DNA from: an uncultured Cycloclasticus sp.
GTDB lineage: Bacteria > Pseudomonadota > Gammaproteobacteria > Methylococcales > Cycloclasticaceae
Assembly: GCA_913057515.1 (NCBI GenBank)
Contig: CAJXOJ010000001.1
Location: forward strand, 62,001 to 126,000
Reading direction: 5' to 3'
Length of the DNA stretch: 64,000 nt
This document shows positions 9,553 to 37,930 of the stretch, piece after piece (position 1 is the stretch's first letter; the number at the start of each line of letters is the position of its first letter). The translations under genes were made by a program, and so were the position numbers. Under the pieces are notes generated by a model that had not been told where the DNA came from, did no database searches, and saw nothing but the letters and a program-made list of their open reading frames with translations.

Positions 9553-9562
9553 CTCTACACCC

Positions 9563-10732
9563 CTACAATGTAGAAGGTTTTCGGCATAACTTAAGGATCA
9601 AGTATCCAACAATTCCAGATGCAAACGAGCCCAATAAAATAGCCAGTTTATCGGTATATTGAAAGAGACTAGTATCTGTAAATGCAAGAGATACAATAAA
9701 TAAGCTCATCGTAAAACCGATACCGGTCAAAATAGAAACCCCATATAATTGCATCCAATTACTTCCATCAGGTAGAGCTGCTAATTTCAGCTTTATTGCT
9801 AACCAACTAAACCCAAACACACCCAACTGTTTACCTAAAAACAAACCCAGCATGATGCCAACCGGTACCGGACCTGCCATTTGATCTAACGATATATCCG
9901 TCACATTGACCCCAGCGTTAACGAACGCAAATAAAGGCAAAATAAGGAAAGCGACCCAGAAATGTAACCCATGTTCAATTTCTTTCAAGGGAGAAAACAC
10001 ACGGTTATTTTCACCCTTTCCAGTGATTGGAATAGTAAAAGCAAGTGCCACGCCCGCTAACGTGGCATGAACACCTGACTTTAGAACGCTGACCCACAAA
10101 ACGGCACCTACAAGAAAATAGGCTGATTTCTTACTCACACCTAAGAGGTTTAAACAAACAAGAACAAACAAAGATGCTCCAGCTACTGTTATTGATAAGG
10201 TAGATAAATCTGCGGTATAAAAAACAGCAATGATGATAATCGCACCTAAATCATCAATAATAGCTAGCGCCATCAAAAACACCTTAAGCGAGACAGGAAC
10301 ACGATTTCCTAATAAGGATAAGATACCTAACGCAAAAGCGATATCTGTTGCCGTTGGTATAGCCCAACCATCTATAGCTACAGGGTTATCTTTATTAAAA
10401 AAGTAATAAATAATGGCCGGAATAACCATTCCACCAACCGCAGCAAACCCGGGTAACGCGACTTGTTTTATGGATGACAAATGCCCTTCTATTATTTCAC
10501 GCTTGACCTCAAGCCCTATCAATAAAAAGAAAATAGCCATTAAACCATCACTCACCCAATGAGAAAGTGACTTATCAAGTTCTAACGGGCCAATGCGAAT
10601 TTCAACAGGTATATGTAAAAAATACTCATACACAGGTGACATAAAGCTATTACTAAATAAAAGAGCTAAAAAGGTTGCAAAAATTAACAGCACTCCACTA
10701 GCCGACTCCCTTTTTATAAACTCATCCAACAT
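9563..10732 (-). CDS. nhaA: Na+/H+ antiporter NhaA
   Basis: 389-aa protein with about twelve membrane segments and the NhaA signature ALAIIDDLGAIIIIAVFYT, carrying the paired aspartates used for Na+/H+ exchange. Length matches E. coli NhaA (388). A clear AGGAG lies shortly upstream of the ATG. It is first gene of an operon with the CPA2 antiporter at 7870-9552. Pairing of the two fits a marine or saline habitat, but this is inference. Confidence 0.92.
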   Translation of the reverse strand: MLDEFIKRESASGVLLIFATFLALLFSNSFMSPVYEYFLHIPVEIRIGPLELDKSLSHWVSDGLMAIFFLLIGLEVKREIIEGHLSSIKQVALPGFAAVGGMVIPAIIYYFFNKDNPVAIDGWAIPTATDIAFALGILSLLGNRVPVSLKVFLMALAIIDDLGAIIIIAVFYTADLSTLSITVAGASLFVLVCLNLLGVSKKSAYFLVGAVLWVSVLKSGVHATLAGVALAFTIPITGKGENNRVFSPLKEIEHGLHFWVAFLILPLFAFVNAGVNVTDISLDQMAGPVPVGIMLGLFLGKQLGVFGFSWLAIKLKLAALPDGSNWMQLYGVSILTGIGFTMSLFIVSLAFTDTSLFQYTDKLAILLGSFASGIVGYLILKLCRKPSTL

Positions 10733-18896: not shown

Positions 18897-19153
18897 TATT
18901 TTCCTTTATTTATAGTTCATCCATTGCCCACCTATGCCAAAACCGCATTACAATAGCAGTTAAATGATTATATTCACCTAGTGTCCTCAAGCTTTTTGCA
19001 TCCTACACTTCTGTGTTATTTAGACAGCCTATTCCCATAACCACACCTGTTTACCCTTAAAGCCCCCTCATCCTATTTAATACTATTATTACATCACAGC
19101 AACCTGTTTACTCTGTTTGCTCTCGATCTAACTAATATTGCCGAACCTATCAC

Positions 19154-19698
19154 TTAACCTAAGTTATTAACCCCTCGCTCTGTGCTTAACAGCCATTCCT
19201 GACGCGCAGCCTCAGCTTGTGCGGTTGCTTTATCTGCCTTAGCTTGAGCAAGCCCAACATCATCAACCGATGTCAGGACTTTGGGCAGTAGTCAGCTCAA
19301 TCACTTTTCTGTATCTCTTGCTGTTTTTGCCAAGCTTTTAGCCGCACTATAATTTGCGTTAGCCATATTAATTTCTTGTAGATGGCTACCCGCTTTGAGG
19401 CGAGCAACAACGTATTGCTGCCCCTCAAGCAAGACCTGAGCTTGGGCCAGTTGCGCATCTAACAATTCGGTATCCAAAGCAGCTAACAGTTGATCCTCTT
19501 TATCTCTATCACCTTCGTGCGCCAAAATCTTAGCAATATGCTCAGAGTCATTAACCGTTAATTGAACTTCACGCATGCCTCTTCTCCCATAAAGGGTAAG
19601 CTCTGTAGGTGCCTTGAAAACTTGCTGTGTATTAAAAATAAACTACGACAGTCATCAGTAATAGCAATAAAGAAACGCCAGTAATAACTTTTTTTCAT
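19154..19698 (-). pseudogene. Decayed HlyD-family membrane fusion gene
   Basis: Three pieces of one HlyD-like protein lie in different frames on the minus strand. First is an N-terminal membrane segment from MKKSYYWRFF (start 19698). Next is a middle piece (19301-19576) with KILAHEGDRDKEDQLLAALD and LAQAQVLLEGQQYVVARLKAG, resembling the lipoyl/coiled-coil part. Last is a tail with VDDVGLAQAKADKATAQAEA, stopping at 19154. At least two frame changes or deletions separate them, and the beta-barrel region is missing. It lies just upstream of the intact exporter operon, so it may be a decayed duplicate or an older exporter subunit. Confidence 0.7.
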
Positions 19699-19786
19699 AT
19701 TGGCTGCACCTGATTTTTTTAATAATATATCATGACGTAAGAGGTTCCCAGTCAAGTAGCGCCTTAATATTAACAGCCCTTTTTAA

Positions 19787-20821
19787 ATGGATACATTAAA
19801 TCTCTCAATCCTCCTTGTTATTTTCATGGTAGGTCTTTTTGACTTTACCAATGGCTTCCATGATGCCGCAGATATGGTGGCAACTGCTATTGCATCACAC
19901 TTAATGAGCCCTGCTATAGCAATATCCATTGTGTGTGTTTTCACCTTTATTGCACCCTTTGTTGTTGGTTTAACTGTTGCCGACACCGTGGGAACATTTA
20001 TTAATATTCAAGGCGCTTCTCAACATACTGCCCAAAGCGTTGTTCTTGGTGCTTTGTTAGCAGCTATCTGCTTTAACCTAGCCACTTGGTGGCTAGGTTA
20101 TCCATCTTCATCCTCTAATTCTCTGGCTGGTGGGCTTGTTGGCGCAGGGCTATATGCTGTCGGCACCGAAAAAATAAATTGGGGTATTAACGCACTGAGC
20201 AGTGGCCATTTAGACGGTTTAATGAAGATCGTCGTTGGTTTATTTGCTTCCCCATTTATGGGCTTTGTGATTGGTTTTTTTGTTATGAAAGCAGTCATGA
20301 GGCTCCTAAAGCGTTTAACCATTAAAGCAAACACCTGGCTAAAGTACTCACAGTATCTCAGCATTGCTTGGCTCGGCTTTACACATGGTGCAAATGACGC
20401 ACAGAAAGGTATGGCTATTATCGGCATGATGTTACTAGCCTCTGGAAACAATCAGGTGTTCAACATCCCCATATGGGCTATTTTTTGGTGTGCATCTGCC
20501 ATTACTTTAGGCACAATGTTTGGCGGCTGGAGAATAATCAAAACATTGGGTTACAGACTTTTCAGAGTCACCCCCGCACACTCGGTCGCCAACCAAATTG
20601 GCGCCGCAATTGTTAACACCCTAGCGACAAGCATTGGTGCGCCCACGTCTACAACTCAAATTGTAACAGCAACATTACTCGGTAACGGGGCAGCAAGAAA
20701 ACCGCTACACGTTAAGTGGCAAACTGCGTTGGGGATTTTTTCAGGCTGGTGGGTTAATATTCCCGCTACGATTATATTAGGGTGGTTATTTTGTTTTCTT
20801 TTCAATTTACTTTGGAGCTAA
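19787..20821 (+). CDS. Low-affinity inorganic phosphate transporter, Pit family
   Basis: 344-aa membrane protein of the PHO4/Pit family. The duplicated family signatures are present: DFTNGFHDAADMVATAI near the N-terminus and FTHGANDAQKGMAIIGM around residues 198-214. About ten membrane segments are expected. It carries phosphate-metal complexes driven by protons or sodium. It is directly followed by a DUF47 gene (TAA then ATG with no gap), the common pit-DUF47 pair. The first motif reads GFHDAAD rather than the usual GxHDxAN, which fits the family but is slightly unusual. Confidence 0.88.
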   Translation: MDTLNLSILLVIFMVGLFDFTNGFHDAADMVATAIASHLMSPAIAISIVCVFTFIAPFVVGLTVADTVGTFINIQGASQHTAQSVVLGALLAAICFNLATWWLGYPSSSSNSLAGGLVGAGLYAVGTEKINWGINALSSGHLDGLMKIVVGLFASPFMGFVIGFFVMKAVMRLLKRLTIKANTWLKYSQYLSIAWLGFTHGANDAQKGMAIIGMMLLASGNNQVFNIPIWAIFWCASAITLGTMFGGWRIIKTLGYRLFRVTPAHSVANQIGAAIVNTLATSIGAPTSTTQIVTATLLGNGAARKPLHVKWQTALGIFSGWWVNIPATIILGWLFCFLFNLLWS

Positions 20822-21445
20822 ATGATGAACTTTATACATAAATATATTCTTCCAAAAGAGGTTGATTTTAATGCCGTAATTTTGAAGCAAGCAAGTGTTA
20901 CCAGAAAAATCGTTTCATATATCCAAAAAGCTTGTTTTAAAAATGACATTTCAACTTTAGACCTTATTACCGAAGAGGTAGCATTCGCACGCGACCTAAA
21001 GACTCAAAACATGAAACAATTGCTTGATGTACTTATTACACCCTACGATAAGGAGTCCATTTTTAGAATCATCACCCAACTGGACTGGATAGCACTTAGT
21101 GTTAAGCACTTTCATCTAGAAATAGTTGAATACAAACTTCAATCACTTGAAGACTACCAAACTATTGCCGAAAAGTTATTAGACATGTCTAACCTACTGG
21201 AAAATGGCATCGGCCAACTGCCGGCACAAAATCTAACTTTAATTAACAGTAATATTGATCAAATAGTTGAGCTATATGACCAGGTAATCTCTGCGTGTGC
21301 AAAAGCAAGCGCCGAATTACTACAACACAATGATTTGGTTACAATCATTCGCGGTAAGGATGTTATTTTGCAACTTAAAGAAATTGCTAAGAGAATACAT
21401 GTCGCAGCCAATACATTAGAAGACATGGCTATTAAGGTTGTTTAG
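20822..21445 (+). CDS. DUF47/PhoU-like phosphate transport accessory protein
   Basis: 207-aa all-helical protein of the DUF47 (TIGR00153-like) family, distantly related to PhoU. It contains no signal peptide or membrane segment. It begins at the base after the Pit stop, so the two are co-translated; such pairs are thought to gate or regulate Pit transport. The transcript end is not obvious. A weak CCCC-AGGC-GGGG hairpin follows the stop at about 21450-21465, about 140 bp before the CRISPR array end. Confidence 0.82.
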   Translation: MMNFIHKYILPKEVDFNAVILKQASVTRKIVSYIQKACFKNDISTLDLITEEVAFARDLKTQNMKQLLDVLITPYDKESIFRIITQLDWIALSVKHFHLEIVEYKLQSLEDYQTIAEKLLDMSNLLENGIGQLPAQNLTLINSNIDQIVELYDQVISACAKASAELLQHNDLVTIIRGKDVILQLKEIAKRIHVAANTLEDMAIKVV

Positions 21446-21604
21446 TTAAACCCCAGGCGGGGCTTTCCGAAGGTACCAAAATGGTGACGATGCACTAGTC
21501 ATACTTAACCAAACAAACCGATCCACTATAGAAAAACAACGAAGTAGACATACTACACCCTTACTTCATTACAGATGAATGCATTATCTGTTCCTCTTAC
21601 TGGG

Positions 21605-21633
21605 CGGGTCATCCCTACGCATGTGGGGAACAC
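21605..21633 (-). repeat. Orphan type I-E-like CRISPR repeat fossil
   Basis: On the minus strand this 29-mer begins GTGTTCCCCAC and ends GGGATGACCCG, with a CCCCAC/GTAGGG stem (one mismatch) and a 4-nt ATGC loop. That is the form and length of widely seen type I-E repeats (GTGTTCCCC...GGGGATGAACCG). Its first three bases overlap the degenerate terminal type I-F repeat (21631-21658). No second copy is found one repeat-spacer unit (about 61 bp) further out. Recognition is from memory of I-E consensus sequences. Confidence 0.7.
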
Positions 21634-24600
21634 TTAAGCTGCCTGTGCGGCAGTGAACACATCAAAGCATCATGGCACCTAAGCGGCTTTTTTCTAAGCT
21701 GCCTGTGCGGCAGTGAACTAACTTGTAGGGCTGAATCTATACCAATAAAGTTTCTAAGCTGCCTGTGCGGCAGTGAACTGGGGCCGTGCAGATTTAGCCA
21801 GCATATTAATTTTCTAAGCTGCCTGTGCGGCAGTGAACCAAAACACCCAGCGTTAGCACCTATAACGATTTTTCTAAGCTGCCTGTGCGGCAGTGAACTT
21901 GCGTTGGCTTCTACGTTGTCGAACGGGTCTTTTCTAAGCTGCCTGTGCGGCAGTGAACTCTTTGTACGTTCCTTTTTTTGAGAAAATATATTTCTAAGCT
22001 GCCTGTGCGGCAGTGAACCTCTACGGCTTGCGATCGATTCATGGGTATTATTTCTAAGCTGCCTGTGCGGCAGTGAACAGAAGCAGGCGGTAGAAAAGAA
22101 TTCACAAACATTTCTAAGCTGCCTGTGCGGCAGTGAACAAGCTAATGAGGATTAGTCTTTGATTACCAAGTTTCTAAGCTGCCTGTGCGGCAGTGAACCC
22201 ATCGAGTGTGACATAGCTGTATTTTTTATCTTTCTAAGCTGCCTGTGCGGCAGTGAACAGATGGGAGTGAGTGTATTTCTGATTTGTCGCTTTCTAAGCT
22301 GCCTGTGCGGCAGTGAACATCGCCAAACGTAGCATCAGAATCCAACGCAGTTTCTAAGCTGCCTGTGCGGCAGTGAACCCAGAATAAGGCTAAGGCAAGC
22401 GCAGCCGCAATTTCTAAGCTGCCTGTGCGGCAGTGAACTTAGCATAGAGCCGCAGCCACGTAGCAAAAATTTTCTAAGCTGCCTGTGCGGCAGTGAACTT
22501 CATGGCTATGCTTTTGCGTTGTATGATTTTTTTCTAAGCTGCCTGTGCGGCAGTGAACAACAAAAGCCCAGCTTTTTGATCTACAAGCGTTTTCTAAGCT
22601 GCCTGTGCGGCAGTGAACGGTCTGAGGCTGTTTTTGGTGAATATAAAGATTTTCTAAGCTGCCTGTGCGGCAGTGAACAAAGGGTGGTCTTGATGATTTA
22701 CGTAAGGCTATTTCTAAGCTGCCTGTGCGGCAGTGAACTAACAACATTTGTTATTTTTAAATACTTCGGATTTCTAAGCTGCCTGTGCGGCAGTGAACGA
22801 AAACGTATTAGGCTCGCGCAAAAAACGAATTTTCTAAGCTGCCTGTGCGGCAGTGAACCAAACGATGTAGCTATTAATAAGATTGTTACATTTCTAAGCT
22901 GCCTGTGCGGCAGTGAACGGATTTCTTCATTGTCAGAAGGCCATACGCCATTTCTAAGCTGCCTGTGCGGCAGTGAACGTTTAGACACAATCGAAGCGGC
23001 TCTAAATCGTTTTCTAAGCTGCCTGTGCGGCAGTGAACAATGGGGTGATATGGGTGCTGTTGGTTATGAATTTCTAAGCTGCCTGTGCGGCAGTGAACCA
23101 ACAGATAGTGAACTAGTCAAAGATAGTGTTTTTCTAAGCTGCCTGTGCGGCAGTGAACGCTAAGCGGTATGAGAACTTCAAGCAGATTAATTTCTAAGCT
23201 GCCTGTGCGGCAGTGAACTGAACATGGCCGATTGCACTAGAAACCCTTGTTTTCTAAGCTGCCTGTGCGGCAGTGAACTGATTTATGGTTCGCATTCGGC
23301 ACATCGGCATTTTCTAAGCTGCCTGTGCGGCAGTGAACCTGGGTAGTAAGAACGCGGCGAATATGGTGATTTTCTAAGCTGCCTGTGCGGCAGTGAACGT
23401 GAAAATAACCCCGTGGACATACAACGCAAATTTCTAAGCTGCCTGTGCGGCAGTGAACGATAATTTACACCGATTACGCACCGCTTTTCATTTCTAAGCT
23501 GCCTGTGCGGCAGTGAACAATATGAGGCAACGCAGATAGTAGCGAAACGATTTCTAAGCTGCCTGTGCGGCAGTGAACGGGGCGATGCCGCTTAGGCGTG
23601 TTGCTCGTAGTTTCTAAGCTGCCTGTGCGGCAGTGAACTAAACACACTCGCCAAGTCCGTTGGAGTATGATTTCTAAGCTGCCTGTGCGGCAGTGAACAG
23701 CGAGTACCTAAAGACCTTGCCGCAATGGATTTTCTAAGCTGCCTGTGCGGCAGTGAACTTAAAATCACCTTGTGCAAAGGCGTGTTTAGCTTTCTAAGCT
23801 GCCTGTGCGGCAGTGAACATCTAGAAGACACAGAAGGTTGTATATTAGTCTTTCTAAGCTGCCTGTGCGGCAGTGAACGCATTTGATGTGTCGTTAGGTG
23901 CGGGTAAAGCTTTCTAAGCTGCCTGTGCGGCAGTGAACATTTCTGATGTGGAAGTAATGGCTAATACGTATTTCTAAGCTGCCTGTGCGGCAGTGAACGA
24001 GGATGATGAGTTGTTTCATTCGTTGATTAATTTCTAAGCTGCCTGTGCGGCAGTGAACACTCAAAAGCGTTTGGCTCATACTTCCGCAAATTTCTAAGCT
24101 GCCCGTGCGGCAGTGAACGAGCCGTTAGCGACTAGCGCCTGTGGTGTACATTTCTAAGCTGCCTGTGCGGCAGTGAACGAAAGCAACGCACGTTATATGC
24201 GCGAACTGGTTTTCTAAGCTGCCTGTGCGGCAGTGAACATTTAAGCGTGTCGAGTGTTTTAGATATTCAATTTCTAAGCTGCCTGTGCGGCAGTGAACAT
24301 ATGAAAAAAACAGACTTCCCGTTCATCAAATTTCTAAGCTGCCTGTGCGGCAGTGAACAAGCAGCCCTCAGAAGCGCGCCTATTTGATATTTTCTAAGCT
24401 GCCTGTGCGGCAGTGAACTTTTCTATATACAGTATCATCACACAAACTCCTTTCTAAGCTGCCTGTGCGGCAGTGAACACATTTATCCCTTATTCATTGG
24501 CTTAACGATCTTTCTAAGCTGCCTGTGCGGCAGTGAACTTAGACGGTGTAGTTTCAGAAGTAGAAGAAGTTTTCTAAGCTGCCTGTGCGGCAGTGAACTA

Positions 24601-26518
24601 TTTTGAAAGATATCCGGCCAAGCCAGTTAATTTCTAAGCTGCCTGTGCGGCAGTGAACTATGTCTATGAGTTTCAAACGCCATAATTGAATTTCTAAGCT
24701 GCCTGTGCGGCAGTGAACTTTATTCCGTGTCAAGTTCCCCAATGTTAAATTTTCTAAGCTGCCTGTGCGGCAGTGAACGGGGAGCCATTCACTTTCATTT
24801 AGCAGTCCATTTTCTAAGCTGCCTGTGCGGCAGTGAACAATTCTGAGTTATCCACAGGCCAAAGTAAAGATTTCTAAGCTGCCTGTGCGGCAGTGAACCG
24901 CAATTTATTGTAGAAGCGCATCATTCCATTTTTCTAAGCTGCCTGTGCGGCAGTGAACTAACCCTTAATGCATTTGTAATGAACTTTGTTTTTCTAAGCT
25001 GCCTGTGCGGCAGTGAACTGAAGCAACAAACGATGGCAGCCTAGATGTTTTTTCTAAGCTGCCTGTGCGGCAGTGAACCGTGGATTGTTGGGGCTGGATG
25101 ATGCCTGAGCTTTCTAAGCTGCCTGTGCGGCAGTGAACACAAAAAACGAAACAACGCCCGTTTAGTTGATTTTCTAAGCTGCCTGTGCGGCAGTGAACTA
25201 TGTCTATGAGTTTCCAGAGCCATAATTGAGTTTCTAAGCTGCCTGTGCGGCAGTGAACGTTAGTAGGCTGCTGTGTACCTGCCTCGTTTATTTCTAAGCT
25301 GCCTGTGCGGCAGTGAACAAAATGTGAGCGGCAAAACGCTTTGCGTTTAGTTTCTAAGCTGCCTGTGCGGCAGTGAACGTAAAATAATATTTACTAAGCT
25401 CGATATGGTATTTCTAAGCTGCCTGTGCGGCAGTGAACCTCGGCCTCAGCATCGCTACCACCATACGAGCTTTCTAAGCTGCCTGTGCGGCAGTGAACGC
25501 GTACTCCCACCAACGCCATCTCTAGTTACATTTCTAAGCTGCCTGTGCGGCAGTGAACGCGGCTTTTAGTTCGGCTATCTCAATCTTAAATTTCTAAGCT
25601 GCCTGTGCGGCAGTGAACAATATTACGGGGTTGCGGCCACGGTTTAGCAATTTCTAAGCTGCCTGTGCGGCAGTGAACAATACAAAGACCACTAACGCCA
25701 TAGCTAAATTTTTCTAAGCTGCCTGTGCGGCAGTGAACCCGAGGAGACCACTGAGACAGCCCCAGATCTTTTTCTAAGCTGCCTGTGCGGCAGTGAACTT
25801 GTGGATTTGCAAGCAAACGCGTATTCAGAATTTCTAAGCTGCCTGTGCGGCAGTGAACAGCAAGTGCTAACGCCCAAGCAAAGAGCGCAATTTCTAAGCT
25901 GCCTGTGCGGCAGTGAACAGGGGGCTGCGGTCACGGGATTACCATTCTGTTTTCTAAGCTGCCTGTGCGGCAGTGAACGTTTGGATCGGTGGCCGATAAA
26001 ATGAGCGCTTTTTCTAAGCTGCCTGTGCGGCAGTGAACTCTACGTAAGTAATTTCTGTGACTGATTGAACTTTCTAAGCTGCCTGTGCGGCAGTGAACGG
26101 GACGATGCCGCTGAGCCGCATTGCGAAAATTTTCTAAGCTGCCTGTGCGGCAGTGAACATAACCGACTTTTTAGTACAGCTAAACCTCGTTTTCTAAGCT
26201 GCCTGTGCGGCAGTGAACCTCTTTCTATGTGCTTTAGTAAAGAGCTTATATTTCTAAGCTGCCTGTGCGGCAGTGAACCTTGGGTGTTTTATTTGTTAGT
26301 GCGCTGCTTTTTTCTAAGCTGCCTGTGCGGCAGTGAACATGCCAGCCAGTGTTTCTCGGTTGAAAATATTTTTCTAAGCTGCCTGTGCGGCAGTGAACGG
26401 ACGAACGACTTGTTATGCCTGGCGATGTATTTTCTAAGCTGCCTGTGCGGCAGTGAACATATTGTAGGTGTTGTTGATATGTATGGTAGATTTCTAAGCT
26501 GCCTGTGCGGCAGTGAAC
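21631..26518 (-). CRISPR. Type I-F CRISPR array, 82 repeats and 81 spacers
   Basis: The 28-nt repeat recurs at an exact 60-nt period, so every spacer is 32 nt. Read on the minus strand the repeat starts GTTCACTGCC, forms hairpin CTGCC-GCACA-GGCAG and ends in CTTAGAAA, the 8-nt 5' handle left by Cas6f. The leader-side end is at 26518, next to the cas operon. The trailer end is at 21631, where the last repeat (21631-21658) differs at 4 of its 28 bases. Apart from that one, the only variant I saw is a T-to-C change at 24104 in the loop, which leaves the stem intact. Spacer pairs 24659-24690/25199-25230 and 23579-23610/26099-26130 are related to each other. Confidence 0.98.
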
Positions 26519-26640
26519 AGCAGTATAAAGCACAAAAAATAAGTTACAACAATCAGTTAGGCGCTATTTTCACAATAGCCCTATATTTTCCTACCTAGCT
26601 GTAACTCTATGATTTTATTAGATTGTTAAAGAACCTTAAA
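26519..26640 (-). promoter_or_regulatory. CRISPR leader
   Basis: AT-rich sequence immediately before the leader-proximal repeat, on the cas-gene side. On the minus strand a TTTATACT box lies within about 12 bases of the first repeat. A site matching 8 of 9 specified bases of the IHF consensus (AATCATAGAGTTA, 26602-26614) lies 84-96 bp upstream. IHF-assisted spacer integration is known for type I-F leaders, so the site is plausible but unproven. The outer boundary is approximate; 26641-26803 beyond it shows no gene. Confidence 0.6.
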
Positions 26641-26803
26641 AACTTTGGTCAATAGACCGTTTAATCACTCAACAAATTTCGTGCCCATTCTGGTAATGCT
26701 GGCACTTTAAACTTTAATTATTCCTTTCCCATTACTTACTTCTGCTATTTGTTTAAATATCTATATTGCTCTGGTAAATACGGATAAAGCTGCTTGGCTT
26801 TTC

Positions 26804-27288: not shown

Positions 27289-27840
27289 TTAAAACCAAGG
27301 GACTGTGGCTGTTTTACTGAGGCCAAATTGATCAAACTCACCTTTTACTGATTGTGAGCTTAGCTCCCCAAACTGAAGGTAACGACGGTGCTTATGACCA
27401 TTTGACCCGCTTTCTAGCTCAAGATAGGGGTTATCCATCCCCTGTTGAAACATTTTTGCTTTATAGGCTTTGGTTTCTTCTTGAGTAATTGATCCTCGCT
27501 TAATCAGCCGCCGTAATTTAGCTTCGGTCATATTAGATTGTATACGTAAGATATTTCTATACATCACATCCGCAGGAATCGTTTGTATAGCGCTAATAAC
27601 GCAATAACCTTTTAAGCCGCCCAACCAATCTAATCTTTGTAGTTCGGTCAGCTTAGCCTCTGTTCCATGCAGCCTAATAACATCACCAAGCATAACTTTA
27701 TAACGCGGAAAACTTACCGCTATTTCTGTTGATTTCTGGTCATACAACGCTTTGTGAAACTTCGTGTAGACCTTGTTTAGTAGAAGGTTTTCACGCATTT
27801 CTGCATCGGGCTTGATCATAATATCCACATAATGACTCAT
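27289..27840 (-). CDS. cas6f: CRISPR endoribonuclease Cas6f (Csy4)
   Basis: 183 aa from the ATG at 27840, giving [12 protein letters not shown]. This start overlaps the cas5fv stop by 4 bases and makes His29 (KFHKAL) coincide with the catalytic His29 of Pseudomonas Csy4. A longer frame upstream to 27924 is not needed. Cas6f cleaves the pre-crRNA at the base of the repeat hairpin, leaving the CTTAGAAA handle, and stays bound to the 3' hairpin. An Arg-rich helix ([10 protein letters not shown]) fits hairpin recognition. It is last gene of the cas operon. Confidence 0.93.
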
Positions 27841-28874
27841 CTTCGAAACTCCCTTGTATCGATCTCTTGAGAGATGTAAGCCAAACCTTTTTTTCCAAGG
27901 TAGAAGCTTGATACACCTGCACAATCAATCATCTCTTTTATTTCCTTCGCTTTATCTCGACTGACATCTACATTGATCTCCAGCTGGCCGCTGGCCTTTG
28001 TCATCAAGGAGGTAACCTCCCCCACTCCTTTTATCCGTTCTTTGCGAATATATGGATTACCCCAGATTTTTTTCTTATCACCTGTTGTAAAGCGATTCAT
28101 AAAATCCTTTGCTGTGAAGCCTCGCTTTGATATTCCACTAATCCCCCCAGCTTTTGTTTTGGCTGAGGCCATATCAAAGCCTCTTTCAGTCAATCGCTCC
28201 AGCTGTATGTAGAGTGCTGAGCAATACAGGCTAATCGGCATAATCATGCCTTTTTTATTAAGATATTCAATCTCAGAAAAAGACTGGCTCAATGCCTCCA
28301 GAGCTCTGCTGGCAAGACCTTCGTTCGGCACAACTTTTTCCTTGTTTAGAGCATCTAGCCTAGAAATAATGGGAATTGGCTCCATATCAATAGTGGCCTG
28401 AACTCTACTTTCAGCATTTATAATAAACTGGCAAAGCGACTCAAAATCAAGTGCTAGAATCCCCCAGAATTCTTCCGAATAGTCCGACTGAAACATAGTG
28501 TCAGAACTTTTGATTGAGCCTGTAAATGAGTTCTGATCTGTACTACCGGTTATGTTCCTAATAAAGGTCATCTCCCTTGTTTCAATTGAGCGATCTTTAA
28601 ATAGAACTTTTTCAGTTTCTGGGTAGTCAATATCACTAAAAAAGTAATCTTCACTAGCCCTAGCTTGATAAAGCTTTCGTTGATCACCGATAAACCTATT
28701 GAGAAGCCCCATGACCGTATCAAGCGTAATACCTCGTTTTTTGAAGTTCTCAGGCTTTTTTAAATTGGTCATTGAGCCAACAAACTTTCGCCCTTTGGGG
28801 GGCAGAGGTTCATTATTATCACCCTCTAAAAACGAGTTTCGCCAAGAGGATTCGTAGTCTATGATAATTTTCAT
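27837..28874 (-). CDS. cas5fv: Cas5fv, type I-F2 (I-Fv) Cascade subunit
   Basis: 345 aa in the position occupied by Cas5fv in the minimal Shewanella putrefaciens I-Fv operon, between cas7fv and cas6f. It is longer than ordinary Cas5. In I-Fv complexes Cas5fv caps the crRNA 5' handle and its extra helical domain takes over PAM and DNA recognition from the absent Cas8f. I recognise it mainly by position, length and weak similarity (for example [21 protein letters not shown]), not by a strong motif. ATGA overlap with cas6f; 9 bp from cas7fv. Confidence 0.82.
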
Positions 28875-28883
28875 CTCAGACTC

Positions 28884-29861
28884 TTATTTAGAGTAGAAAT
28901 AAGAAGCATAACCACCATTTCGCTGCTCAGATATATCACCTTCACCGCGCTTAATACGCATCATTTTATGGCTGTTATTGTAATCAACCAGCACTTCGTC
29001 CACATACATATATGATTTAGCTTGGCGAATAGATAACTCACTAATCATTTGCAGGGCGTGCTCAACAAGCGCCTGGATTGCATCCTCATTGAGAAGGATT
29101 CCTTGTTCACCCTCCTCAAAGATTGTCCCACCACGAACATAATTTGGGTGGAATATCGCTTGTGGAGCTAAGTTTGGATTAAGTGTTTGTATAAAGTCTT
29201 GAACCGCTTGAGCCACTTCTTCACCTTGCCCATCTTTAATGACCATCGCACATCGGTCAAACTTTTTATCCAGCGAAATAAACTGTAACTGCTCAATGCT
29301 GATAGAGCCGTAAGAGGTGTATTTGGTATCACCAAAAGTTGTCTTTGAGAAAAATGAATTACTAGACTCTTCTCCTTTCTTGTTTTTTTCCTTTTCTTTG
29401 CTTCCCGAACGCCCCATTTGCTCAAAATTACCATTTCCCAACTCGTCAACAAAATCTTCCATTAACAATGGGCTGGTACGTTTACATTGGCTGGATGGTA
29501 CGACGAAACCACGAATAAGCCCTGTTACGGATGCCAGTACACCTTGCAAGCTTTTTTCTGCTGCATAATGAATATCAAATGCCTGATCTCTAAACAAATG
29601 ATGGCGTATACAGTTTTGGCTAATATAGAGAGGCGTTTTCTTGAAATCTATATCCGTTGCTTCTTTCTTATATTGGTAGCCAGTATCCTCTTTTACCTTT
29701 CCCGTTAAATTTGTGTATCCACGCAGTTTGGGCAGAGTATGGTTATCAACTGTCTTACCCCCATCACCCGTTAATGTTGTTGGACCATTCCAATTCACAA
29801 CGCCATGACCTAGTGCCGTTACTTTAAAATCAACACTTCTAATGCCTTCTACTTTTTCCAT
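28884..29861 (-). CDS. cas7fv: Cas7fv, type I-F2 (I-Fv) Cascade backbone subunit
   Basis: 325 aa; closely follows the Cas7fv pattern known from Shewanella: [19 protein letters not shown] near the N-terminus, [19 protein letters not shown] around 78-96, [11 protein letters not shown] around 123-133 and [13 protein letters not shown] near the C-terminus. Multiple copies coat the crRNA spacer to form the Cascade backbone. Residues 154-166 are a lysine/glutamate-rich run ([11 protein letters not shown]) just before SFFSKTTFG that looks like an insertion. It starts 2 bases after the cas2-3 stop. Confidence 0.93.
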
Positions 29862-29863
29862 AA

Positions 29864-32770
29864 TTACTCTCCTTGAGTTTCTAGTTGATGAGCTGAAATA
29901 GCTCCAATTGGTTGGTTCTTTCCCATCGCATAATAAATTGCGAATGAATTAGGGGCCGCTTCCACTCGCTTTAAGTCTTCAGGTGTGTAGCTTAAATAAA
30001 TAGGGGTTTCTGGGCTTCTAGCCTCACCTAACAACACACTGTCTTTATAAGCCTTTTTCGCACTCTCTTTTATGTTGTGGTGTTTTTTTGCCATAAAGGC
30101 AAGCAAGTCTCTTTCACTTGCACCATAACCACAAATAAGCTCCACAGACATCGTTAAATGGCCATCAGTATCACTTTCGCTATAAGCATACTCATTTGGA
30201 AACTCCTCTTTCCCGTTGCCAATATTTAATACGGCCATCTGTGCAAATCGGTTATCGCCCCTCAATGAATTCTTTTTGATCTTTGGTTGGTCTTCTTTTG
30301 GCTTTCTTTTGCTTGGAAAAGAGACCGGATCCATCACTTTTGCATTGATGACATCTACGCTCTTTTTTAACGCGGCAAGCATATCTTGCTCTACAGCCAC
30401 TCTGCTTTTTTGATCATTGTAAAAATCTTTATATATTTGGTACAGATCAGAAATTGTGAGGGTTTGTTTATCCGAAATTTTCTCCTGTAAAAACTCACCC
30501 CATGCCTTAGCGGCTTGCAGACAATGAGATTGATTTAGAAAACGGGCACATGCCCCACTTTGCTTACCACTTGCTAACGTCTCAGGTATTGCTATAACAA
30601 AAGTATTTATGCCCTCATTTTCACCAAATCGATCCAAGCGCCCCAAGCGCTGTAGTTGATTTTCTGCATGGGTAAACTCTGAAACCATTTTGGCAGAGGT
30701 AATATTAAGCGATGCTTGGACAATCGGCCCTGATCTTAAAACCGCATACTCCCTTGAACCGCCTTTTTTGAACGTGTTAAAAACTTTTTCAAACAACGCC
30801 TGTTTATCTGATTTTTTGTACTTTGAGTGAAACAAAAGTGCTTTTTCGGTATCTTGATTTTTAATAAAACTTTTTTGCGCTGTAATGGCTGTATTGCTGA
30901 TAACAATCGTATTATCTGGCTGAGACTGATACAGCGGATTGCTTCCCTTATCACTCTCATCAAAAGGGGGGAATTCGATTTTATATTGACCTCTATTAAA
31001 GCTATCAACCCCTATAATGTCGGCCTCATTTAAAGCCAATAACTCATCAATAAAATAGTAATTGGGTGTTGCCGACACCAATAGTGCATTTGCCTTATCA
31101 CCCTGCATTTTTTTACACTCTACTAATTCGGCAAACAGTAGATTAAATGCAGGCATATTGATGTACTCATGATACTCATCAAATACGATGTGGGCATTCA
31201 TGTACTGAACAAGCCCCGTTACTTTTTTATGCGTTGTAATTGTGTTTATGACTTGATCAATCGTTGTTAAAACGATGTCTCCAGAAAACTCCCCCCCCTC
31301 TGGCGTATCAATCGCGTTTCCATTTTCGTGGATTTCTTTAAATTCACCCGTACAAATTTCAATCCTCGTCTTGGGTAAGTATTCACTGCTTGTTAAATCA
31401 TTCATTAACCCCTGACAGACCTGCACCCTCGGGCAGACCCAAATTATCTTTCTTGCATTGGTGTTTGCGGCCCACTCTAAGGCGACTTTTGTTTTCCCAC
31501 AGCCTGCGGGGCCATTTAGGACACCAATCACAACCTCTTCATCTGACAGTTCTTGAGCTGCTATTTTCTGCTCTTTGTTTCTTGTGCTATCAGGGTATTC
31601 TTTCTCAAATCCCTGCAAGCAGCTCTTAATCTCTGTTTTTAGCCCTCTATCAACTAACAAAGCTTCTTCTAATAAATCATCCAAGGTTGATTCTTCTATA
31701 TGTTGATTTAGTCTTTCTGCACTTAATGCTGAAACCAGCCTGTCAGCCGTTGTAACGACTGTTCTAGCAATGCTGTTTCTAGCATTTTCTGAAATGTTTT
31801 TTTGGTAATCATTCACTCTCGTTTTTTCTGAATACCTTTTATATTTTGGCAGCCTTTCCTCTTCAATTTCATCTAGCCTTGTATCACTTGGCTCCCGCGC
31901 AGGAAGAGTCAGAGATAGGTCTCCATCATAAAAATAATTTTCTGAGATAATATTTATTCTTTCTATTACCCAGTGGGCCGCATGAAATACTTCAGTAAGC
32001 TTTGTCTCTCTCAACTTGCTGTACAGCATATCAAGGCTAAAACTTTTCGGTTTTCCGCTTTTTTCAGCACCCCGAAACCACCGGTCATGATGCCAATAAA
32101 TAGCATGTTCAGCCTGCCTCTTTACATTGGAGTTTAAAAAAGCCTGTTTACTTAATAAATAAAACAGTAACGCTGAAATCTCATTGTGCCGAGGATAGTT
32201 TTTAGATTTACTGTCGTCATGTTGCCCATCTTCTGGAATGGCCAGATCTAAAGCCCCTTTCTTTTTTAGTACTCTCCCTATCCATGCCTGAAAGCTATGG
32301 TCAATTTTCCCCATATCATGCCAACAACCTGCTACAAAAACAGCTTGTGCCAACTTCTCATCATCAACCAACTTCTTACACAGTTGCTGAGCCACATACC
32401 CCACAGCAAACAAGTGCTGCTCTAACGGCTGCTGCTTAGTATTCGCATACAGTTCTTCCATTACCATTTCTCCAAGAAATAATTCTTTATTTGTATAATT
32501 TACCGGCACAATCCCCTCCGCATTAAACTTATCTCTATTCCCGACGCACCAGATAAACTCACTTCTTGACCGACTCCGAATCCAAAAACAACTCACCGCC
32601 GTATTCTTGCTGGCGGTTTTCCTTAATAGTTTTTTTACAGCCTGCAAACCTTCTTCGGTGATGACGGTTTGCCAAGTGTTATCTCCAATGCGGTTGGCAA
32701 AGGCATCTAATACTCTTCGTGTTCTATTCAGGGCTTTTTTCTGGCATTGTGAAACAAAGGTGACCATCAT
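29864..32770 (-). CDS. cas3f: Cas2-Cas3 fusion nuclease-helicase (type I-F)
   Basis: 968 aa. It has an N-terminal Cas2 domain (~1-95), then an HD nuclease with [12 protein letters not shown] (HD at 151-152) and YWHHDRW, and a superfamily 2 helicase with Walker [10 protein letters not shown], box [10 protein letters not shown] (DEYH), motif III LLVSATP and [12 protein letters not shown]. The Cas2-3 fusion is diagnostic of type I-F and couples spacer acquisition with target degradation. The C-terminal domain extends past residue 800. It overlaps the cas1 stop by 4 bases. All motifs are intact, so interference and adaptation look functional. Confidence 0.95.
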
Positions 32771-33741
32771 TGATTGTCACCATCAGCTGATTCTTTGTTT
32801 TGGTGGTGCTCTAACGCTACGGTTTTGACTTGTTCGAACATGAAGTCTAGTGCTTTATGTTGGGTAAATGCTTGTAAACACTGCTGGCGAAATTCTTGCT
32901 CTGTCGCTCCCTCTTTGGCACAAATAAAAGCCCACGGAAGCACTAAGGTATCTTTAATTAAATCAGCCACATCAAAAACCAGTGCGCCACGACGAGTTTT
33001 ACCGTGCATGACTGCAAATCCATGCGGAATACCTAACACCCAAAGTGTAGTAGCGGCCAAGCCGTAAGCTAAATAATTACCGTGATTTAGGAAGGCGTTG
33101 GCATCGTCTATACTGTTATGTTGGCGCACGAAGTCTTTTTGTTTGGTTCTAGTGGCTGCAATTTTATATAACGATTTGGTCAGCTGTGCTTCGACTAAAA
33201 GCAGTTTAGACACGTCTTGGCAATGCTCTATTTTTGCAGAGAAGTTTGTTAGGGCTTTGTTAACATCGGTGTCGTCTAAATTAAAGCCTTCATCTTTTAA
33301 GTCTCTATCTTTTGCCCAAACTTTTTGCATGTAACCGACGCGTTGCTGCTGGAACTGTTTAGCGACTGTTAGGCGTTTTTCCTGCTCAAACCAAAATTGC
33401 ATCCAACCTTGTATATATTCGGTTGGGCGGTATTCGCTTTGTGGGGTCATCCATTCAATTTCAGTGCCCATTAGCAAGGGCGTGCCGCCACTGCCACTAA
33501 AGCCAATTAACACACCCGCCGAGGCCAGCATTCTAACAGCAGCCTGAGTAATTGACGTGCCTGTACCCAAAAGAATACAGGTGGTATTGGCAATGGGAAT
33601 ATTCCAGTACTGCTTTTCGTTTTTTTCCTCTGTTAAGTACAAAACCCTGCCGTCCTTTTGCATGACACGGCACATGTCTAAATAATAAATATTCGCCCGT
33701 TTGGAGTGCAGTATTGCTTTTAAATCGGTGAGCTGTTCCAT
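32767..33741 (-). CDS. cas1: CRISPR integrase Cas1 (type I-F)
   Basis: 324 aa from ATG 33741 (MEQLTDLKAIL); a TTG at 33762 could extend it by 7 residues. It contains the Cas1 metal-site residues: Glu in LLLVEAQLTKSLY, His in GFAVMHGKTR, and Asp/acidic residues in LVFDVADLIKD. It forms the integrase with the Cas2 part of Cas2-3. The ATG lies 1 base after the stop of a 58-codon ORF with its own strong ribosome site, so cas1 translation may be coupled to it. Confidence 0.95.
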   Translation of the reverse strand: MEQLTDLKAILHSKRANIYYLDMCRVMQKDGRVLYLTEEKNEKQYWNIPIANTTCILLGTGTSITQAAVRMLASAGVLIGFSGSGGTPLLMGTEIEWMTPQSEYRPTEYIQGWMQFWFEQEKRLTVAKQFQQQRVGYMQKVWAKDRDLKDEGFNLDDTDVNKALTNFSAKIEHCQDVSKLLLVEAQLTKSLYKIAATRTKQKDFVRQHNSIDDANAFLNHGNYLAYGLAATTLWVLGIPHGFAVMHGKTRRGALVFDVADLIKDTLVLPWAFICAKEGATEQEFRQQCLQAFTQHKALDFMFEQVKTVALEHHQNKESADGDNQ

Positions 33742-33742
33742 A

Positions 33743-33919
33743 TCAATTAAACTCGCACTCAAATTTGAACTTTAATCCGTCCCCAAGGGTTCGGAGATTC
33801 TTTAATGCCTGTAACACTCGCGGTGGTATGCGAGTTACTGAGGTTTTGCTGAATGTTACTGCTCCTAGCGACAGCCCCAACCATGCTAAAATTGCTCTAC
33901 GTTTTGCGATACTGACCAT
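33743..33919 (-). CDS. Putative 58-aa small protein at the head of the cas operon
   Basis: ATG at 33919 is preceded by AGGAGGT (33924-33930) at ideal spacing, stronger than the ribosome site visible for cas1. The product begins MVSIAKRRAILAWLGLSLGA, with two basic residues ahead of a short hydrophobic stretch, and ends LKFKFECEFN. Its TGA (33743-33745) is 1 base from the cas1 ATG. I do not recognise the protein. It could be a genuine small Cas-associated protein, a translational leader for cas1, or the relic of an older gene. Support is the ribosome site and the exact junction, not homology. Confidence 0.5.
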   Translation of the reverse strand: MVSIAKRRAILAWLGLSLGAVTFSKTSVTRIPPRVLQALKNLRTLGDGLKFKFECEFN

Positions 33920-34036: not shown

Positions 34037-34999
34037 TTACGTTGAATAGGCCTTTATTGCTGTTTCTAATTTAGCCAGCACCGACTGATGTAATGTTGAT
34101 GGAGCCTCCACAAGAACATGAGGTGTATAGCGTAAAATGTCTTGTGTTAATTCTCGTTCATCGGCATAGGGGATAGTGAGCACATACTCCTCCCCTTGCC
34201 AGTAACCCGTTTGTTTTGGGTGCCACTGTTGTTGCGAAATTTCTTTCGCAATGGCAGGTAAAAACCGTAACGTTGCCATGTACTTTGCCTTACCTGAAAA
34301 GATACCGTAACTGTTCGAAAAGTGAGCTTGCCGCTTAACGTTGGATATTTTTTTTAATATTGCTTTATGTAACTTAACGGTGCTAATTCTTGCCACACTA
34401 AAGGTTCGCAAGTTCTTACGTAGGTGGCACCAAGCATCTAAGTACCAGTTTTCACGGTAATAAATAAGCCCTTGCGGGCTAATCCGCCTTTGTGTGTTTA
34501 TTTGGCTGTAACTGAGGTATTCAATATCCAGTTGCTGTTCATTCATTAGTGCTTCACTAATCAGTTGAAAAGCATGCGTAGGAAGTTGTCGGTGACCAAT
34601 CGGCAGTATTTTTATCACATCACGGAACACACTCGGTTGAATACCTCGCGCTGCTAATAATTTCTTAATTTCGCGCTCAACCGGCTTTAGCTCACCCGTT
34701 AAGTTATTTGGTGCTAAGTTCTCTAATAAATGTAGTAGAAGGCTTAACGATTGCAACTCTCCTGCTGTTAGCCAAAGACCCGGTAATTCAAACCGATCAG
34801 CTTTATCATCAACATAATGCCAGCCTTTTCCACGACGACTATATTCAACTGGTGCGCCATACCGTTGCATGGTCTCTATATTACGACGAATAGTACGCTC
34901 TGAGCATTCCAGTATTTCGGCTAGCTTAGCCAATGATACTGGACGCCTATGACTTCGTAATTCGCGATGAATCTGTTGAATACGATCAAATTTATCCAT
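34037..34999 (-). CDS. WYL-domain transcriptional regulator adjacent to the cas operon
   Basis: 320 aa. It has an N-terminal winged helix-turn-helix (~1-60: LAKLAEILECSERTIRRNIETM), and the WYL ligand-sensing domain (~135-215) with SPQGLIYYRENWYLDAWCH and RTFSVARI. A WCX-type C-terminal domain follows. WYL regulators of this kind are frequently linked to CRISPR-Cas and other defence loci and can bind nucleic-acid ligands. It lies upstream of the cas operon in the same direction, about 117 bp before the small ORF. A role in controlling cas expression is inference from position. Confidence 0.88.
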   Translation of the reverse strand: MDKFDRIQQIHRELRSHRRPVSLAKLAEILECSERTIRRNIETMQRYGAPVEYSRRGKGWHYVDDKADRFELPGLWLTAGELQSLSLLLHLLENLAPNNLTGELKPVEREIKKLLAARGIQPSVFRDVIKILPIGHRQLPTHAFQLISEALMNEQQLDIEYLSYSQINTQRRISPQGLIYYRENWYLDAWCHLRKNLRTFSVARISTVKLHKAILKKISNVKRQAHFSNSYGIFSGKAKYMATLRFLPAIAKEISQQQWHPKQTGYWQGEEYVLTIPYADERELTQDILRYTPHVLVEAPSTLHQSVLAKLETAIKAYST

Positions 35000-35178: not shown

Positions 35179-36432
35179 CTATTTACTTATATTAAAAATA
35201 GTGCCAATCTTGCTTTTACGCTGCTCAATTAACGCGACTATTTTTTTAACTTGATCATTCTCGCCATGTTGTTGCTGGCACTCAGCTGCCAGTTCAACTG
35301 ATATTGTCGATAGTGTATTTGCCATATCTAGACACCTTTTCCTAACGAGCTTAAATTTGATACCGGTGTCTTTTGAGAACTGTTCCCAACGCCTCTCAAT
35401 AATCCAATCGGGCCTGTCTTCCCCGCCTATTTTCATGGCCATTTTTTGAGCCAAATTAGGGTAGATGGCTGTGCTCATCAGGTCATAAAAGGGGGCTAGT
35501 AGAGGCCCTGCCGAGGTTAGCATGAGTGAAATATTTTTGCCGTGAGCATCGGCATTGCCAATTAATACATTGAAGATAACCCAATTGAGTAGTTCGTTTA
35601 AGTCTTTGGCTGGCTGAATACTATGGTTGCGTACTAAGTCAAAACATGACTTTAGGCTTGGGCCACCTTCTTTTTCATACTTGTTAGTAGGGGGAATGGC
35701 CATTGCCTGACAGAAATCTTCTTGAGGCAATCGTATTAACTCATCTTGTTCATTACGAATACGGTCATAACGTGTAATGAGGTATAACGGTACTGCTTTA
35801 TGGAGGATTTGTGTTTCGGGGACATTTAAGCCTATCCTTTTAGCCAACTGCATACAGAAATATTCATTTTCAACGGTATTAGGGTAATGCTTTATGGGCG
35901 GTTTTAAAATATGGCTACTCGCCGCTATTCCCGTTGGTATGCTGATCTCATGACCATTATAAAAAACGGGCAGTTTGTTTTGTGCGCCAGCTAGCGATAA
36001 TCTAATATCCTGTTCACCGGCCATCATCGGCTGTATTCGCAACTTTACGATTAATTGATTTAACGCATCATCATTAAGTTTTTTATAATCACCTTGTGTT
36101 GGGAGACCTATTCCTTCCGGGATCAAGCTCACAGCACCGGCACACTCTCCCGCAATGGCTTCTAATAGGGAAAAATCATTGTTTTCAGATAAGCCCAAAC
36201 TTTTTGCGACTAAATGCCTTATTTCTGCTTCAGGTAGTAAATTAGAGAAAAACGGTTGGGCACGTGCATGATGATAAGGTTCAGTTCGTACAGGTAAGCT
36301 TAGCGAAAGTGGCTGTGACTCATGATTTTCAACCCACTCAGGGTAGTATTCAAATACAAAGCGTCGTTCATCATCTAAGTAAAGTTTCCCTACGCGTTCT
36401 GCTGATAGGTACACGTCAAGCACTTGGCTCAT
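35179..36432 (-). CDS. hipA: HipA-type serine/threonine kinase toxin
   Basis: 417-aa HipA family protein. It has an N-terminal couple domain (YLSAERVGKLYLDDERRFVFEYYPEW), the HipA motif SLAGAQNKLPVF, catalytic-loop GNADAHGKNISLM and the metal-binding DLMSTA. E. coli HipA phosphorylates glutamyl-tRNA synthetase and triggers persistence; the target here is unknown. All kinase motifs are intact. Its start overlaps the hipB stop by 4 bases, the usual antitoxin-first order. Confidence 0.9.
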   Translation of the reverse strand: MSQVLDVYLSAERVGKLYLDDERRFVFEYYPEWVENHESQPLSLSLPVRTEPYHHARAQPFFSNLLPEAEIRHLVAKSLGLSENNDFSLLEAIAGECAGAVSLIPEGIGLPTQGDYKKLNDDALNQLIVKLRIQPMMAGEQDIRLSLAGAQNKLPVFYNGHEISIPTGIAASSHILKPPIKHYPNTVENEYFCMQLAKRIGLNVPETQILHKAVPLYLITRYDRIRNEQDELIRLPQEDFCQAMAIPPTNKYEKEGGPSLKSCFDLVRNHSIQPAKDLNELLNWVIFNVLIGNADAHGKNISLMLTSAGPLLAPFYDLMSTAIYPNLAQKMAMKIGGEDRPDWIIERRWEQFSKDTGIKFKLVRKRCLDMANTLSTISVELAAECQQQHGENDQVKKIVALIEQRKSKIGTIFNISK

Positions 36433-36704
36433 GATGGCTCACCTGACGCATCTAGGGTGAAGCTTGAGTGTGTCCAGCCTCTGGGCTGAATTGCCAACTC
36501 TAAGCCTAAGCTATTCAGCACTTGTAAGACCTTACCCATTTCAATTGTTTGTTTCCCATTTTCCAAATCAGATATAAATCGCACTCCCACACCACATAAC
36601 GACGCTAATTCAACTTGTGTTGCGCCCTGTCGCTTCCGTTGCTGTCGCACGATATCACCCAATGCTTGCGCGCTTAATATTTTCCCGCTCGGTAATGTTG
36701 TCAT
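36429..36704 (-). CDS. hipB: HipB-type antitoxin, XRE-family DNA-binding protein
   Basis: 91 aa with a central helix-turn-helix (IVRQQRKRQGATQVELASLCGVGVRFISDLENGK). It neutralises HipA and represses its own operon. Two TCCCGTT-MGGGA half-palindromes at 36733-36744 and 36783-36794 lie just upstream and are likely its operators. Confidence 0.88.
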   Translation of the reverse strand: MTTLPSGKILSAQALGDIVRQQRKRQGATQVELASLCGVGVRFISDLENGKQTIEMGKVLQVLNSLGLELAIQPRGWTHSSFTLDASGEPS

Positions 36705-37062: not shown

Positions 37063-37070
37063 ATTGGAAT

Positions 37071-37145
37071 GGTGGGTCGTGCGCGATTCGAACGCGCGAC
37101 CATCGCATTAAAAGTGCGGTGCTCTACCGGCTGAGCTAACGACCC
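37071..37145 (-). tRNA. tRNA-Lys (UUU)
   Basis: On the minus strand GGGTCGT pairs with ACGACCC as the acceptor stem, followed by A and an encoded CCA. The D arm (GCTC...GAGC), anticodon arm with loop CTTTTAA (anticodon TTT) and T arm (TTCGAAT loop) are all recognisable. The first pair of the anticodon stem is a C-A mismatch. It follows queC, as in many gammaproteobacteria. Its 3' end faces the hipBA/CRISPR block. Confidence 0.97.
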
Positions 37146-37219
37146 TCCAAGAAGGCGAGAATGATACCCGATTGGTGAAAAAAGGCAAGTTGAATTTGCT
37201 TTTTAAACGTGTATTTTAT

Positions 37220-37912
37220 TTAAACTCTGTTGCTTTGCTCCATATAGCAGGTAGGGTCTTTAAGCTTGGCTTTTTCAAACCCTTGCTGGCGTAACCGACA
37301 TGACTCACACTCGCCACAGGCCTCACCTTTTAAATTAGCTTGATAGCAGGACACTGTTGCGCTGTAATCGACATTCAAGGCATCACCTTTTTGTATGATT
37401 TGCGCCTTAGTTAAATTGATTAGCGGGGTATGAATTTTAAAACCACCTTCTTCTACACCCGCTTTAGTGGCTAAGTTGGCTAGTTTTTCAAAAGCCTCTA
37501 TAAACTCTAGGCGGCAATCTGGGTAACCGGAATAATCCACTGCATTAACACCAATAAAAATATCCCAAGCGCCGATCACTTCCGCCCAGCCTAGTGCGAT
37601 AGAAAGAAACACTGTGTTTCTTGCAGGCACATAGGTGACGGGAATACCTGAACTTTGTTCGGTCGGTACATTTATCTCGTCATCGGTTAGCGCCGAACCA
37701 CCGAATTCACCCATGCCTAACTGGATAATTTTATGCTCAACGACTTCGTACGTTTTAGCTAAACGACTTGCCGCCTCTAATTCTGAGTTATGCCGCTGCC
37801 CATAATCAAAACTGAGTGCATAACAGTCGTAACCTTGTTTTTTTGCTATTGCCAATACGGTGGCTGAGTCCAAACCACCTGACACGAGTATTACTGCTTT
37901 TTTTGACATCAT
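37220..37912 (-). CDS. queC: 7-cyano-7-deazaguanine synthase QueC
   Basis: 230 aa with the N-terminal PP-loop [10 protein letters not shown] and the C-terminal zinc site [11 protein letters not shown]. It converts 7-carboxy-7-deazaguanine to preQ0 with ATP and ammonia for queuosine synthesis. It follows queE at an 18-bp gap, so two consecutive pathway enzymes are together. Confidence 0.96.
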
Positions 37913-37930
37913 CTATTCGTTAATTATTGT

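Follow-up and report, generated by a model that had tools for sequence, protein, structure and literature searches.

A lone type I-E repeat joined to the far end of a type I-F2 CRISPR array in Cycloclasticus as the probable scar of an exchange of CRISPR types

The I-F2 locus and the end of its array

The window analysed here, a 64,000-nucleotide stretch of DNA from an uncultured Cycloclasticus sp. (contig CAJXOJ010000001.1, positions 62,001 to 126,000), contains a complete CRISPR-Cas locus on its minus strand, flanked on one side by a WYL-domain regulator, a hipA-hipB pair and tRNA-Lys with queC, and on the other by a conserved gene that we use as the left-hand anchor (Table 1). Cas7fv, Cas5fv, Cas6f, Cas1f and a Cas2-3 fusion occur together with type I-F repeats, which identifies the system as subtype I-F2 (I-Fv). 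All 81 spacers of the array are 32 nt long, and of the repeats before the last just one, at 24091-24118, is imperfect, with a single mismatch. When the spacers were compared with the other loci in our set, the matches listed were only self-overlaps and repeat-to-repeat matches of the segment holding this imperfect repeat. The cas operon (27289-33762) can also be set beside an I-F locus of another genome of the genus (L068, G014:C1:790001-810000), to which Cas1f is 96%, the Cas2 part 88% and Cas6f 63% identical; the rest of Cas3 and the Cas5 and Cas7 genes have no match there at E 1e-8, a pattern that would be a sign of module shuffling.

Table 1. Features of the window at and around the CRISPR locus, in window coordinates
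Feature	Position	Strand	Basis or remark
Left-hand anchor gene	9563..10732	-	94% identical to the homologue beside the I-E array of G017
Flank beyond the fossil repeat	21454..21604	.	No homologue among the compared loci; no second I-E repeat on the fossil's strand
Fossil type I-E repeat, single copy	21605..21633	-	Interpreted as the terminal (leader-distal) repeat of an I-E array since lost
Last I-F repeat	21631..21658	-	24 of 28 bases, then fused to the I-E repeat's 5' edge
Type I-F CRISPR array	21631..26518	-	82 repeats, 81 spacers; leader at the high coordinate
I-F leader, conserved stretch	26594..26652	-	76-84% DNA identity to array-side stretches of other I-F loci
cas6f (csy4)	27289..27924	-	TIGR02563, E 9e-53
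cas5fv	27837..28874	-	Pfam PF20158 Cas5fv_helical, E 1.2e-67
cas7fv, marker of subtype I-F2 (I-Fv)	28884..29861	-	NF040577, 490 bits against a cut-off of 200
cas2-cas3 fusion	29864..32770	-	TIGR02562 on residues 1-105; Cas3 HD and helicase models behind
cas1f	32767..33762	-	TIGR03637, E 8e-146
WYL-domain regulator, upstream of cas1f	34037..34999	-	Pfam WYL, HTH_11; neighbours and tree
hipA-hipB pair, right flank common to the G017 I-E locus	35179..36704	-	Pfam HipA_C; protein identity 84% and 75% to G017
tRNA-Lys and queC, right-hand anchor	37070..37912	-	

Read on the minus strand outward from the oldest spacer, the array passes through GTTCACTGCCGCACAGGCAGCTTA, a perfect I-F repeat over 24 of its 28 bases, and then into AGTGTTCCCCACATGCGTAGGGATGACCCG, which holds a complete repeat of type I-E form. 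The last I-F repeat accordingly reads GTTCACTGCCGCACAGGCAGCTTA followed by AGTG, its final four bases (GAAA in the other repeats) having been replaced, and it runs directly into the fossil I-E repeat GTGTTCCCCACATGCGTAGGGATGACCCG, with three bases common to the 28-mer I-F frame and the 29-mer I-E frame. The original prediction had described a 29-bp repeat of I-E form abutting the end of the I-F array and overlapping it by 3 bp, and both statements are borne out, the overlap by the sequence at 21631-21633 and the repeat form by the match statistics that follow; its description of the last I-F repeat as degenerate holds in that the repeat is altered, but the alteration is a truncation of an otherwise perfect copy rather than a general decay. 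The Cas6f hairpin of this cut repeat is intact and, because the hairpin is retained, the oldest I-F spacer should still be processed and usable.

The fossil differs at two positions from the I-E form GTGTTCCCCACATGCGTGGGGATGAACCG and is the sole match to it in the window when up to three mismatches are allowed; none of 100 dinucleotide shuffles contained any match at that threshold, and the second-best site anywhere in the window has 11 mismatches. It has the make-up by which we recognise an I-E repeat (about 29 nt, GTGTTCCCC, a stem, GGGGATGAACCG) and is the only I-E match in the genome to which the window belongs (G000, 89.87% complete), with reversed-pattern controls at zero. A search for an I-E array, that is at least two repeats at a spacing of about 61 nt, returned this single copy, the next I-E match on the minus strand of 20800-21640 having 15 mismatches. 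The fossil is a relic rather than an array, and its two substitutions both fall in its 3' half, which fits a terminal repeat copy.

The I-E form that the fossil matches is a real repeat, because its exact consensus occurs in a two-repeat I-E relic of the genome G298 and forms close to it make up arrays in congeners (59 copies in G017, 30 in G010 and 5 in G002). The G017 and G010 repeats each depart from the fossil at 4 of 29 positions, so neither is its direct parent. Within the order, 8 of 311 genomes (G000 counted) match the fossil at up to three mismatches, and 91 of the 311 match a generic I-E pattern, for which the reversed-pattern controls shown were zero. Two fragmentary loci seen in the same comparisons may be recorded here. 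The G298 relic (L190, G298:C113:1-900) comprises two I-E repeats and a leader, its cas2/cas1 region apparently broken off, and the stretch beside it was read by eye as cas2 and a broken cas1; G298 also has an I-F2 Cas7fv match that contains one stop. An orphan I-F mini-array of two repeats, the second of them cut, lies at 1441-1522 of L009 (G010:C4), in a genome with an I-E system.

The same chromosomal site in congeners

Three of 18 genomes of the genus match a Cas8e profile, and the same profile has no match in the 89.87% of the genome that G000 represents. I-E cas genes other than cas8e were sought within the window, where the I-E proteins of G017, G010 and G002 yielded, at E<0.01, cross-matches of Cas1 and Cas3 to the I-F genes and nothing else. 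Of the genomes compared at the locus G017 is the closest, and in it an intact I-E operon and array (array at C2:36154-39722, cas8e at C2:44080-45447) sit between the homologue of the left-hand anchor gene and hipBA/queC; flanking genes and orientation are those of the window. The left-hand genes tested, from 1149 to 10732, have their best matches on this I-E contig at 85-98% protein identity; on the right, hipBA, queC and the genes beyond match the same contig at 75-93% identity, with the I-E system between the two flanks and gene order and orientation conserved. A blastn comparison of G017 C2:34921-60000 with the window (E<=1e-3) gave matches only at 35180-36899, at 37064-46091 and between the I-E repeats and 21600-21642, and left of hipA the match of I-E repeats to the fossil is the only one for this 25-kb stretch.

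The mark of an in-place subtype exchange that we looked for, the other subtype standing intact at the site in a close relative, is present in G017. It was also there that we found what the original prediction had proposed to look for in relatives, an I-E array with cas8e at this locus; and the outcomes that it had named as counting against it did not occur, in that the fossil does match I-E repeats and did not turn up in relatives with no CRISPR history. The window resembles the I-E CRISPR-Cas systems of G017 and G010 in repeat form and orientation, and that of G017 in chromosomal site as well, but it has one repeat, with the four differences given above, and no I-E cas genes were found in it.

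At this site G014 has a different gene and no CRISPR. In 11 queC neighbourhoods of further congeners the best I-E match has 10-12 mismatches and no I-F repeat has fewer than 10; two of these (L063 and L067) are uninformative, their contigs ending less than 200 bases from queC on the CRISPR side, and in L061 the contig ends 2.1 kb from queC on the relevant side. G002 was given no weight as a witness, being a bin with two queC matches whose I-E contig may come from another species. Its I-E locus (L052, G002:C52) and that of G017 (L050-L051, G017:C2) share 98.6% DNA identity, whereas the hipBA stretch shares only 81%, and near-identity of this kind would reflect either a recent transfer or a mixed bin.

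Between the left-hand anchor and the fossil lies a 10-kb block (11096-21445) with ABC exporter, pit and phoU-like genes, which is absent at the site from G017, G014 and G003, the three genomes in which both anchors were seen; in G017 and G002, pit and phoU-like genes occur on contigs other than that of queC. A search for an island attachment repeat of the tRNA-Lys found no direct repeat in 37000-37250, and an approximate probe, a weak one that was guessed rather than taken from the tRNA's own 3' end, was unmatched.

A second pair of loci and the WYL regulator family

A second locus at which I-E and I-F sequences are combined comes from two sister genomes, G235 and G145, which have nearly the same WYL gene and different CRISPR types. 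In G235 (L253-L254, G235:C1:5103001-5143000) the WYL gene precedes a 75-codon start of an I-E cas3 (the 75 residues match NF007248, E 2.5e-18), after which come cas1f, cas3f and csy1-4 and an array of 171 I-F repeats with two longer gaps, of 1.8 and 2.1 kb, among them; this array is followed by 1.2 kb of unrelated sequence, then by a single I-E repeat and, 34 nt further on, by a lone I-F repeat. In G145 (L255, L318), contig C124 has the WYL gene and then an I-E operon with all eight cas genes, and contig C43 has an I-E array whose last unit is the terminal repeat of G235 (two differences in 29), followed by the 34 nt of G235 (one difference) and the same lone I-F repeat; the two contigs are separate in the assembly and their order is taken from G235.

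The sisters are 91.3% identical in DNA over 3,120 bp on the cas side, up to the cas3 start; on the array side their identity is 95.9% across 1,618 bp that begin with the terminal I-E repeat. Because the flanks of G235 match G145 up to and from these two points, about 24.5 kb was exchanged in G235, an I-F1 cassette standing in place of I-E with I-E sequence left on both sides. The G235 cas3 continues for about 100 bases and then gives way to a diverged cas3-like stretch, as if recombination had fallen inside the conserved cas3 start. The pair is a second, independent case of I-E exchanged for I-F. It resembles the window in that an I-F cassette replaces I-E and a terminal I-E repeat lies past the far end of the I-F array, and differs from it in that the G235 cassette is I-F1 where that of the window is I-F2, a gap of 1.2 kb separates array and fossil, the cas3 start is kept, and an I-F repeat lies beyond the fossil.

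That outermost repeat may belong to a still older event. In both G235 and G145 it starts 63 nt after the start of the terminal I-E repeat, the period of the I-E array being 61 nt, and in this end region the I-E and the I-F repeats both have GTTCCC near their start; I-E may earlier have displaced an older I-F array in these genomes. G241 has a comparable arrangement (L189, C123, about 7837-7927, minus strand), with one I-E repeat, 34 nt that differ from those of G235 and G145, and one I-F repeat, and no cas genes were seen by eye among the reading frames listed for its 8.4-kb contig. I-E repeats, taken as sites with up to three mismatches to two generic forms, lie less than 3 kb from I-F repeats only in G000, G235, G145 and G241, a count that covers the compared loci, many of them short slices that stop before the array end, and is no census.

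Relatives of the WYL regulator stand upstream, mostly directly, either of the I-E cas3 or, in other genomes, of cas1f (L070-L099, L193-L252). On a WYL tree of 73 rows, labelled I-E (23), I-F (9) or none (41), the I-F label needs at least six changes; the tree takes in 73 of 75 loci, two I-E-labelled ones whose translations hold a stop having been dropped, and it keeps the I-E rows G062, G205 and G177b, which are based on weak Cas3 matches of 60-61 bits. The clade of the window's own WYL comprises four I-F rows, one I-E row and one unknown, and with labels so mixed the tree is silent on which type came first. Because WYL genes precede cas1f in other I-F loci too, that of the window may have arrived with the I-F cassette.

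Explanations of the junction and their weight

We consider it very probable that the fossil is the terminal repeat of a former I-E array at this site and that an I-F2 cassette took its place in the same orientation, the cassette (cas1f to cas6f, and the array) being placed between the hipBA/WYL side and the old array end. The original prediction had offered just such a replacement as one of its readings, and the intact I-E locus of G017 supports it. On the cas side, the join could have formed by recombination in flanking DNA common to I-E and I-F loci, such as the WYL gene and the cas3 start, and on the array side it would have formed at the leader edge of the I-E repeats; the I-E array, now unused, would then have shrunk by recombination between repeats to its last, slightly decayed copy. 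A join at the leader edge combined with loss between identical repeats would leave exactly one terminal repeat. In both the window and G235 the retained I-E part starts at the 5' (leader-side) edge of a repeat. In G017 and G298, but not in G010 and G145, ATAAGA forms the last bases of the I-E leader ahead of the repeat; TTAAG precedes TGTTCCCC in the window, and its likeness to that leader end may be taken as a weak hint.

Several observations weigh against replacement. The fossil is four positions away from both the G017 and the G010 repeat, the 10-kb block that separates it here from the left-hand anchor is missing in G017, G014 and G003, the WYL gene may belong to the I-F cassette, and G000 is a draft bin. 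The 151 bp beyond the fossil match none of the compared loci, and the stretch of 274 bp that separates WYL from cas1f gave no match to any I-E protein or locus. No remnant of an I-E gene was found on the cas side of the window, where the only similarity is the generic one of Cas1 and Cas3 at E<0.01. When remnants were looked for on both sides of each cassette, the window had a scar on the array side only, its cas-side WYL gene being ambiguous, and G235 had them on both.

In the main competing reading the I-E repeat arrived together with the I-F cassette, the replacement having already taken place in the donor, and the match with G017 is a coincidence at a defence hotspot. The site bounded by queC and the left-hand anchor gene is variable in the genus, with another gene in G014, and may be such a hotspot; moreover, the passage in G235 from a cas3e remnant into diverged cas3-like sequence before cas1f suggests that cassettes can carry I-E pieces. 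Against it, none of 38 other I-F loci has an I-E-like repeat at up to seven mismatches (the far array end being visible in 17 of the 38). An exact-pattern scan for close junctions (I-F repeat core, 0-30 nt, I-E start), a pattern that would miss wider layouts like that of G235, returned three matches in the contigs of 84,980 species, all of them chance occurrences of an I-E-like 9-mer within a spacer. The pattern and its reverse each gave zero matches in viral contigs, and the reversed pattern gave zero in 369 genomes of the class. We regard such a donor as unlikely. The other option of the original prediction, an origin of the I-F array by ectopic spacer integration beside a lone I-E repeat, draws on the position of the join, which coincides with the I-E repeat's 5' edge, where Cas1-Cas2 would be expected to work. 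Integration by Cas1-Cas2, however, duplicates the repeat that is struck, and an I-E repeat therefore could not become 82 I-F repeats; the I-F cassette is, besides, complete, with a leader and five cas genes. This option is not supported, and we hold it to be highly improbable.

It is more improbable still that the 29 bp represent a spacer, or some palindromic repeat element, with a mere resemblance to an I-E repeat. An I-F spacer would indeed start at about this point, and palindromic elements of the form CGTTCCCACGCTC...GCGTGGGAACG occur near the CRISPR loci of relatives, but no I-F repeat follows the fossil, the 5' GTG of the I-E repeat falls within the I-F repeat frame, the elements lack the GGGATGAACCG end, no second copy of the fossil was found in the G000 genome, and chance resemblance is opposed by the shuffles described above. 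We give as little credence to an assembly artefact, for which it can be said that G000 is a draft metagenome bin, that CRISPR repeats are involved and that the junction is known from the assembly alone. The I-E and I-F repeats have no long word in common on which an assembler could jump, and DNA typical of the genus lies on both sides of the cassette on one contig of 188,621 bp, so that an artefact would need two false joins; the same kind of architecture recurs in G235, a genome of three contigs.

Replacement in place, as we read the window, has precedents in outline. In E. coli, a module-exchange study of 2014 reportedly described one I-E cas variant replacing another I-E variant in place, a cassette swap like that of the window but, on that account, not one between subtypes. 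In Serratia, one context (mdtN-phnP) is occupied by I-E cas sets in some strains and by I-F1 sets in others, and arrays whose repeat mismatches the cas genes of their genome have been called alien (PMC9981886). Such shared contexts are like the window in placing I-E and I-F cas sets at one genomic context; unlike the window and G235, the passages of that survey considered here show neither a fusion of I-E and I-F repeats nor two-sided scars (PMC9981886). The open-licence literature searched yielded no description of an I-E repeat joined to an I-F array, a result by which novelty is not proven. In-place exchange of CRISPR cassettes is known in outline, and the terminal-repeat scars look like a new form of it.

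Whether far array ends in general keep a layered record of CRISPR types, built up by swaps of whole I-E and I-F cassettes beneath a CRISPR-linked WYL family in which the break on the array side fell at the leader edge of the former terminal repeat, seems to us evenly balanced; on such a reading there would be three layers in G235 (I-F, I-E, I-F) and two in the window (I-E, I-F2). How one CRISPR type comes to displace another is mostly deduced from gene phylogenies or from a scattered distribution. Where the new array is joined to a terminal repeat of the type that it displaced, the locus bears a physical scar, from which the order of events, the breakpoint and the orientation can be read. Any genome can be searched for such a scar, and in G235 and G145 it can be checked against an intact sister locus, so that the frequency and direction of type exchange become countable.
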